The notes below the pieces were generated by a model. It was not told where the DNA came from and did no database searches. It was given only the letters and a program-made list of their open reading frames with translations. A stretch of 64,000 bases of DNA from Thermocrinis ruber. Its GTDB lineage: Bacteria > Aquificota > Aquificia > Aquificales > Aquificaceae. Where the stretch lies: positions 1,240,001 to 1,304,000 of the forward strand of contig NZ_CP007028.1 of the NCBI RefSeq assembly GCF_000512735.1. The letters run 5' to 3'. Every line of letters starts with the position of its first letter. Position 1 is the stretch's first letter. Made by a program: the position numbers and the translations under genes. Below are positions 12,752-13,627 of the stretch, in pieces.

Positions 12752-12760
12752 AAGCAAAAG

Positions 12761-12766
12761 ATTATA
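12761..12766 (-). promoter_or_regulatory. -10 box of aspS
   Basis: Perfect TATAAT on the minus strand, 9 nt before ATG 12751. It lies about 7 nt beyond the right end of the upstream IS605-type relic, so the relic abuts the aspS core promoter. Confidence 0.55.
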
Positions 12767-12772
12767 AGGGAT

Positions 12773-12926
12773 GTGAACTACCCCACCTCCTATAAGGTGG
12801 AGCTTCCTGCTTCAACGCATGATGGCTTTTTAGGTATCCCGTAAGGGATACGGTCATCCACCAGAGCATGCTCCACAGGCTTAACTTCGGGTCGTTCCAA
12901 CCCTAGGTCCCTTGATTATCGGGACG
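12773..12926 (-). ncRNA. Orphan omega-RNA (reRNA)-like transcript
   Basis: A roughly 150-nt region expected to be transcribed on the minus strand from the promoter at 12933-12961. It folds into hairpins: GTCCC-N9-GGGAC (5' end, 12906-12924), GTATCCC-TTAC-GGGATAC (12835-12852) and CCACCT-N6-AGGTGG (12784-12801), then a GGTAGTTCAC-type right end near 12773. In IS605 elements, the tnpB 3' end plus right end is processed into the guide RNA of the TnpB nuclease. Here no tnpB body is present. RNA production is inferred only from the promoter and the intact folds. Confidence 0.45.
12790..12912 (-). pseudogene. tnpB: 3' remnant of an IS605-type tnpB
   Basis: Reading the minus strand, 40 codons then TAG (12792-12790) encode a typical TnpB C-terminus: GLERPEVKPVEHALVDD ... 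VEAGSS, where PEV-PVE and VEAG are hallmarks of this family's tail. Upstream (12913-12930) the bases for a further RPDNQG-like piece are in another frame, so the relic is frameshifted and everything 5' of it is gone. Only the 3' coding end and element right end are left. It is unrelated in sequence to the complete TnpB-like gene at 42.4-44.0 kb. Confidence 0.8.
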
Positions 12927-12932
12927 CTTATT

Positions 12933-12961
12933 AGTATAGACCAAAATAAGAACCCTGTCAA
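12933..12961 (-). promoter_or_regulatory. Consensus promoter facing the IS605 relic and aspS
   Basis: TTGACA (12961-12956), 17-nt spacer, TATACT (12938-12933), minus strand. The start point would be near 12926, exactly where the folded relic begins. It could drive the small RNA, the aspS operon, or both. It lies just past the 3' end of the transaldolase gene. Confidence 0.65.
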
Positions 12962-12973
12962 GTCTGATTTAGG

Positions 12974-13627
12974 TTAAAAAGGTTTCCCGGGCACCTTTTC
13001 CCAATCCTTGAGGAAAAGCTCTATGCCTTTGTCGGTTAGCGGATGTTGGAAGAGTTTCTTCATCACCTCAAAGGGCATGGTGCATATGTCTGCCCCTATG
13101 AGCGCTGCCTCCAACACATGCATGGGATGTCTTACGCTTGCCACTATTATCTGAGTGTCAAAATCATAGTTGTCAAAAATGGTCTTTACATCCCTTATGA
13201 GCTTCATGCCATCGCTGGAAACATCATCCAACCTGCCTATGAAGGGAGACACAAAGGTGGCTCCCGCCTTTGCGGCAATAAGTGCCTGAGTGGGAGAAAA
13301 GACCAAGGTAACATTAGTGGGTATTCCCTCAGATTCAAGCTCCTGAACCGCTATCATACCCTCCGGCGTCATGGGGATTTTCACCACCACATTATCACCA
13401 AGCTCCGCCAACTTTCTTCCTTCTTCCACCATACCCTTGGCATCCCTTGATACCGTCTCCAGGCTAACGGGACCATCCACCAACTGCAGTATTTCCTTTA
13501 CAACTTCCATAAAGGGTCTTCCTGTCTTGGCTATGAGGGTTGGGTTGGTTGTAACGCCATCCAGTATGCCCCATTCTAAAGCCTGCTTTATCTCATCCAC
13601 ATTTCCTGTATCTAAAAAGAACTGCAT
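12974..13627 (-). CDS. tal: Transaldolase / fructose-6-phosphate aldolase (TalC type)
   Basis: Small Schiff-base aldolase of the pentose phosphate pathway (217 aa, typical of the TalC/MipB subfamily). [28 protein letters not shown] and the catalytic-Lys segment [12 protein letters not shown] (about 80-92) are canonical; SPFIGRLDD follows. It starts at ATG 13627 with AAAGGAGG upstream. True transaldolase versus F6P aldolase cannot be separated by eye. It sits 17 nt after the PDO gene on the same strand, so the two are probably co-transcribed. Confidence 0.93.

Follow-up and report, generated by a model that had tools for sequence, protein, structure and literature searches.

Results

An insertion between talB and aspS

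The window analysed here is a stretch of 64,000 nucleotides, positions 1240001-1304000 of the Thermocrinis ruber genome (G000), which consists of one contig of 1,521,037 bases. Between talB and aspS it carries an inserted element of 201 bp on the minus strand (12773-12973), which we read as a decayed PATE/MITE of IS200/IS605 type and whose limits are set by an empty site in four congeners. Followed along the minus strand from 12973 to 12773 together with its flanks, the sequence runs from TTTAA into CCTAAATCAGACTTGACA-N17-TATACT, then through the omega-RNA region to GTAGTTCAC, and from there into the host sequence ATCCCTTATAATC. In the congeners G001, G004, G005 and G006, whose aspS proteins are 96-98% identical to that of the window genome, the end of talB (TTTTAA) is joined directly to the aspS flank. 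This clean empty site reads CCCTTTTAA immediately followed by ATCCCTTATAATC in G005 and G006, and G001 and G004 depart from this reading by 1-3 bases to the right of the junction. The insertion was found in one genome only, where the mini-element is present as a single copy. The left flank TTTAA (12974-12978, minus strand) is the target site, and its TAA doubles as the stop codon of talB, which stays intact. TTTAA also stands directly before the loci L070, L073, L074, L076 and L079, and GTTAA before the IMG/VR copy L089; by analogy with the TnpB literature (PMC8612924), TTTAA is presumably the TAM. On the opposite side the edge of the element is TTCAC, and the IS605 right end recognised in the initial annotation finishes exactly at 12773 by the empty-site comparison.

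The initial annotation placed the feature at 12773-12961 and described it as an orphan guide-RNA locus with its own promoter and without a left end. The locus is real, but its true extent is 12773-12973, 12 bases longer. Alignment with the complete copies in G012, a Hydrogenobacter MAG, and in IMG/VR identifies an 8-nt left-end tip, CCTAAATC (12966-12973, minus strand), with which the insertion starts at 12973 directly after TTTAA; the stretch is thus not an orphan but a single inserted element that has a left-end tip and the left-end promoter of its family. The absence of a tnpB body and of tnpA had been seen correctly: within the 201 bp we found the tail of tnpB only, about its last 37 codons, and no transposase gene. 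The frame of this tail, GLERPEVKPVEHALVDDRIPYGIPKKPSCVEAGSSTL followed by a stop codon, is present as described, and it matches the tail (...EQPEVKPVEHALVDDRIPYGIPKKPSCVEAGSSTFYKVG) of an intact 408-aa TnpB in G012.

Sister copies and full-length relatives

Sister mini-elements, which have left end, promoter and right end in common with the window copy, occur several times in G012 and once in the IMG/VR contig 3300034404_000011, so that several dispersed copies of the family are known. In G012 the left end is retained in the copies on contigs C33, C49 and C4, the copies C16 and C4b are left-truncated, and C50 has a larger internal deletion. Complete copies open with TTTAA followed by CCCAAATC, a hairpin and AGACTTGACA, and the left end of the sister copies has the form CC(C/T)AA..., to which a hairpin like TCTCCATCTTCTGTAAGGTGGAGA and then AGACTTGACAGGGTTCTTATTTTGG are joined. 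A deletion between 12966 and 12965 has removed the 44-nt left-end hairpin from the window copy, which retains the whole sequence from AGACTTGACA onward; hence it has the subterminal hairpin at the right end and has lost the left one, whereas the sister copies have both. TnpA needs the left-end hairpin in the IS200/IS605 family, and the window copy should therefore be immobile; the hairpin was probably lost after the insertion.

The left-end hairpin and tip of the sister copies are common to L070, and the right end is common to L070, L071 and L072, which are relatives of the autonomous type. Such full-length relatives combine the same left-end hairpin and promoter with tnpB and the right end. 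Their TnpB proteins score best with the IS200_TnpB model, and in G048 (L072) a Y1 TnpA adjoins tnpB. The element DNA is 95% identical to the G012 copy whereas the aspS proteins are only 77% identical, which points to acquisition of the element by horizontal spread. On IMGVR_UViG_3300034404_000011 a complete mini-element is accompanied by a C-terminal tnpB fragment (L089 about 509-709, L126); this contig is phage-like, with terminase-, ThyX- and ribonucleotide reductase-like ORFs, and could serve to carry the family from host to host. In a congener, a decayed omega-RNA/right-end remnant of a different kind lies directly 3' of an ilvB-like gene (L120 1501-1596, G005:C105:3890-3985), and no counterpart of this ilvB-linked remnant turned up in the window genome.

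The left-end promoter

The promoter scan located TTGACA-N17-TATACT at 12933-12961 (minus strand), which agrees with 11 of 12 consensus bases and is the best of three promoter-like sites in the region, compared with 0.7 expected. The promoter is conserved in the sister mini-elements, and full-length elements have one at the same position before tnpB, TTGACA-N17-TAGAAT in G012 (L070) and TTGACA-N17-TATAAT in G022 (L071); the resident tnpB relic of the window genome likewise carries TTGACA-N17-TAGAAT at this place. Thus the consensus promoter reported earlier is real but is not private to the locus, being common to sister mini-elements and full-length relatives. Judging from its position, the promoter of the mini-element would drive the omega-RNA region directly. 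A 5' hairpin, GTCCC-N9-GGGAC (12907-12925, minus strand), was identified by folding and sequence search and is specific to the mini-elements: a search of 112 genomes of the order found it in G000 and G012 alone.

Omega-RNA scaffold and its fold

The 133 nt at 12773-12905 (minus strand) comprise the 3' end of tnpB, a complete omega-RNA scaffold and the right end, and they match the covariance model. Identity over these 133 nt is 95% to G012, 88% to G022 and 86% to G048. The nearest intact element (G012:C33) agrees with the window copy at 127 of 133 positions, and the six substitutions are divided between the 5' hairpin (three) and the right-end loop (three). The possibility that the tnpB-like tail, the hairpins and the promoter are coincidental intergenic sequence is refuted by this identity to an intact IS605-type element, by the clean empty sites and by the sister copies, and we regard its probability as negligible.

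The scaffold contains the omega-RNA hairpin GGGTTGGAACGACCC (12889-12903, minus strand), which is covarying helix 1; a RAGATH-18-like core (12806-12879, minus strand; helices 3-6), in which a CCTGT...GCAGG closing stem surrounds a variable arm with a perfect 7-bp stem, GTATCCC/GGGATAC, at 12851-12834; and the right-end hairpin (12780-12803, minus strand; helix 7), where both sides have changed in 7 of 10 pairs. In the G012 mini-elements the variable arm is shortened and the CCTG/CAGG core is kept. The three hairpins pointed out at the outset fold better than 200 of 200 shuffles (z -3.67). Moreover, standard pairs occupy 95.6% of the cells in 14 aligned relatives, and both partners have changed in 18 of 42 pairs. 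Double-change cells in these 14 relatives number 90, where shuffles gave 34.8 and slid structures 5-16, with the structure derived from the alignment being tested. The omega-RNA/right-end reading is upheld by this one covarying fold, and the RAGATH-18 model of Rfam hits 12804-12879 with 30.8 bits (E 9e-4), which lies under the gathering score of 44.9. Other Rfam families (HPnc0580 with 18.1 versus 37 bits, RMST_2 and sR39) were all below threshold and were rejected.

Perfect stems had been taken as a sign that the fold is maintained or recently formed. The stems are real, but the match at 127 of 133 positions indicates that they were inherited from a tnpB-bearing parent, so that they say little on selection at this locus, and we see in them no evidence of domestication. 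The fold is real and old and belongs to the transposon family rather than to the aspS locus.

Would-be guide sequence and partner proteins

The host DNA beside the right end, as defined by the empty-site comparison, provides a would-be 16-nt guide, ATCCCTTATAATCTTT (12757-12772, minus strand), which contains the aspS -10 box (12766-12761); the earlier statement that the aspS -10 region and start codon lie just past the right end is confirmed. A domesticated guide RNA could be envisaged, acting in trans by loading a TnpB or a nuclease-dead TldR-like repressor encoded elsewhere and by binding or cutting the aspS promoter sequence. The intact scaffold, the strong promoter match and a guide that spans the aspS -10 would suit such a role, as would three long and intact TnpB-related ORFs of another family in the genome. 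However, the sole match of the guide is to its own flank, where TTCAC stands in place of TTTAA, and TAM plus guide has no other occurrence in the window genome at up to 3 mismatches. The element is absent from the four congeners, and its stems show no pattern of selection relative to the parent, since all six substitutions fall either in the 5' hairpin or in the right-end loop.

The partner is also missing. The only TnpB of the same family in the genome (L009 3463-4679, minus strand), 87% identical to the G012 TnpB, is dead, since TGA replaces the codon of Trp36 and the frame shifts near the C-terminus, and the remaining TnpB-related ORFs come from other families. A covariance search of the window genome returned only two such RNAs, those of the element near aspS and of the resident tnpB relic. 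No Y1 transposase (Y1_Tnp) was detected in the window genome. A link of the three other-family ORFs to the aspS-side RNA is unsupported, and the empty sites, the dead same-family TnpB and the absence of a target with TAM make the domesticated guide RNA highly improbable.

The resident relic is a dead IS605-type element (L009 3345-5551, G000:C1 about 932844-935050) inside an opposite-strand tnpB, which it interrupts; it has kept its left-end hairpin and promoter and adjoins a 522-aa TnpB-related ORF. The three TnpB-related proteins are 518-524 aa long, 89-95% identical and assigned to TIGR01766, with intact reading frames near 123175 (L008), 327362 (L007) and 931250 (L009 1749-3317) on G000:C1. 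Weak PF07282 matches at 1463338, 327362 and 123175 were set aside, being a radical-SAM-like protein and two of the TnpB-related ORFs of the other family.

Possible consequences for aspS

Six bases separate the right end from a downstream TATAAT box, and a -10-like box is found at the matching position upstream of aspS in many relatives. In many Aquificaceae this TATAAT-like -10 (window 12761-12766) precedes the aspS start by about 9-12 nt, which suggests that the native aspS mRNA is nearly leaderless in this family. Because the right end sits directly before the -10 box, the insertion replaces the native -35 region. The scan gave no terminator-like site between the element promoter and aspS; it is plausible that the insertion adds an outward promoter toward aspS and affects its expression. 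One could therefore propose that the element is retained as a cis-regulatory leader or new promoter whose transcript hairpins or promoter set aspS expression, in accordance with the orientation of the promoter and the exchange of the -35 region next to a family-conserved -10 box. We consider this improbable, because the congeners manage without the element, the hairpins are those of a transposon omega-RNA, and retention is judged from one genome. A leader function could be a by-product of the insertion rather than the reason why the element exists.

Discussion

We estimate at roughly 0.88 the probability that the locus is an immobilised and decayed mini IS200/IS605 relic (PATE/MITE), most likely an ordinary one, and the decaying relic is the best supported of the three options offered in the initial annotation. 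The insertion, its ends, the sister copies and the family fold were observed directly, and the genome showed neither a Y1 transposase nor an intact TnpB of this family. An intact promoter and RNA fold would fit a functional locus, and a recent insertion should have them just as well.

In the origin that we propose, internal deletion of tnpA and tnpB would have left a left end with promoter, the tnpB 3' end with the omega-RNA, and the right end, a unit that TnpA could presumably move in trans. Such a mini-element, from an Aquificales lineage, would have inserted 3' of the TTTAA shared with the talB stop and immediately before the aspS -10. With the later loss of the left-end hairpin, in a genome without TnpA or a working same-family TnpB, it would have become an immobile relic. 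If it is transcribed, as its promoter would predict, the product would be an omega-RNA with the aspS promoter sequence as guide, running into aspS as a leader of ~175 nt. At present the element would most likely either provide aspS with an additional promoter and leader or have no effect.

A bolder proposal concerns the parent mini-element family, which could be a self-contained guide-RNA unit of about 245 bp, composed of left-end promoter, 5' hairpin and omega-RNA. Where a genome, like the Hydrogenobacter MAG, encodes an intact TnpB of the family, every copy might produce a guide of its own and use that TnpB in trans to cut its empty sites, with the window copy as a stranded descendant. We hold this to be unlikely; were it true, a gene-less element would profit from RNA-guided retention. 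Whichever applies to the parents, a suggestive locus is here resolved to an ordinary transposon derivative with exact ends, an empty site and a parent family, and the wider family, with promoter and omega-RNA, without tnpB and also on a virus contig, is convenient for testing the use of TnpB in trans by gene-less IS605 derivatives. Among the papers searched for PATE or MITE elements together with TnpB guide RNAs, none was on point.

Among known systems, the closest in architecture is the PATE-like IS605 element of Halanaerobium hydrogeniformans, about 271 nt long, with a left end, no tnpA, the terminal portion of tnpB and a complete right end (PMC7290912). The window copy, at 201 nt, has the same parts, but it lacks the left-end hairpin and keeps the left-end promoter, and its sister copies and full-length relatives are known from other genomes. 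In ISDra2 the omega-RNA (reRNA) combines the tnpB 3' end with the right end, takes its guide from the flanking DNA and has a TAM equal to the left target site (PMC8612924). The window element has a scaffold, a would-be guide from the flank and a presumed TAM of this same kind; unlike ISDra2 it lacks tnpB, and its presumed TAM is TTTAA rather than TTGAT. By this analogy, the mechanism from which it descends would be the ISDra2 TnpB-type guide RNA. RAGATH-18 (RF03064) is a TnpB guide RNA linked to IS607 TnpBs (PMC11061315), and its core fold is recognised here, though below the gathering score; the relatives of the present element, in contrast, fit the IS200_TnpB model and one has a Y1 TnpA. Finally, the guide RNAs of TldR, whose partners are TnpB-like nuclease-dead repressors, have guides that match promoters (PMC13418256). 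The aspS-side element resembles them as a TnpB-type guide RNA with a promoter-matching guide, and differs from them in that no tldR-like partner is adjacent, the guide is the flank of an insertion, and the element is absent from relatives.
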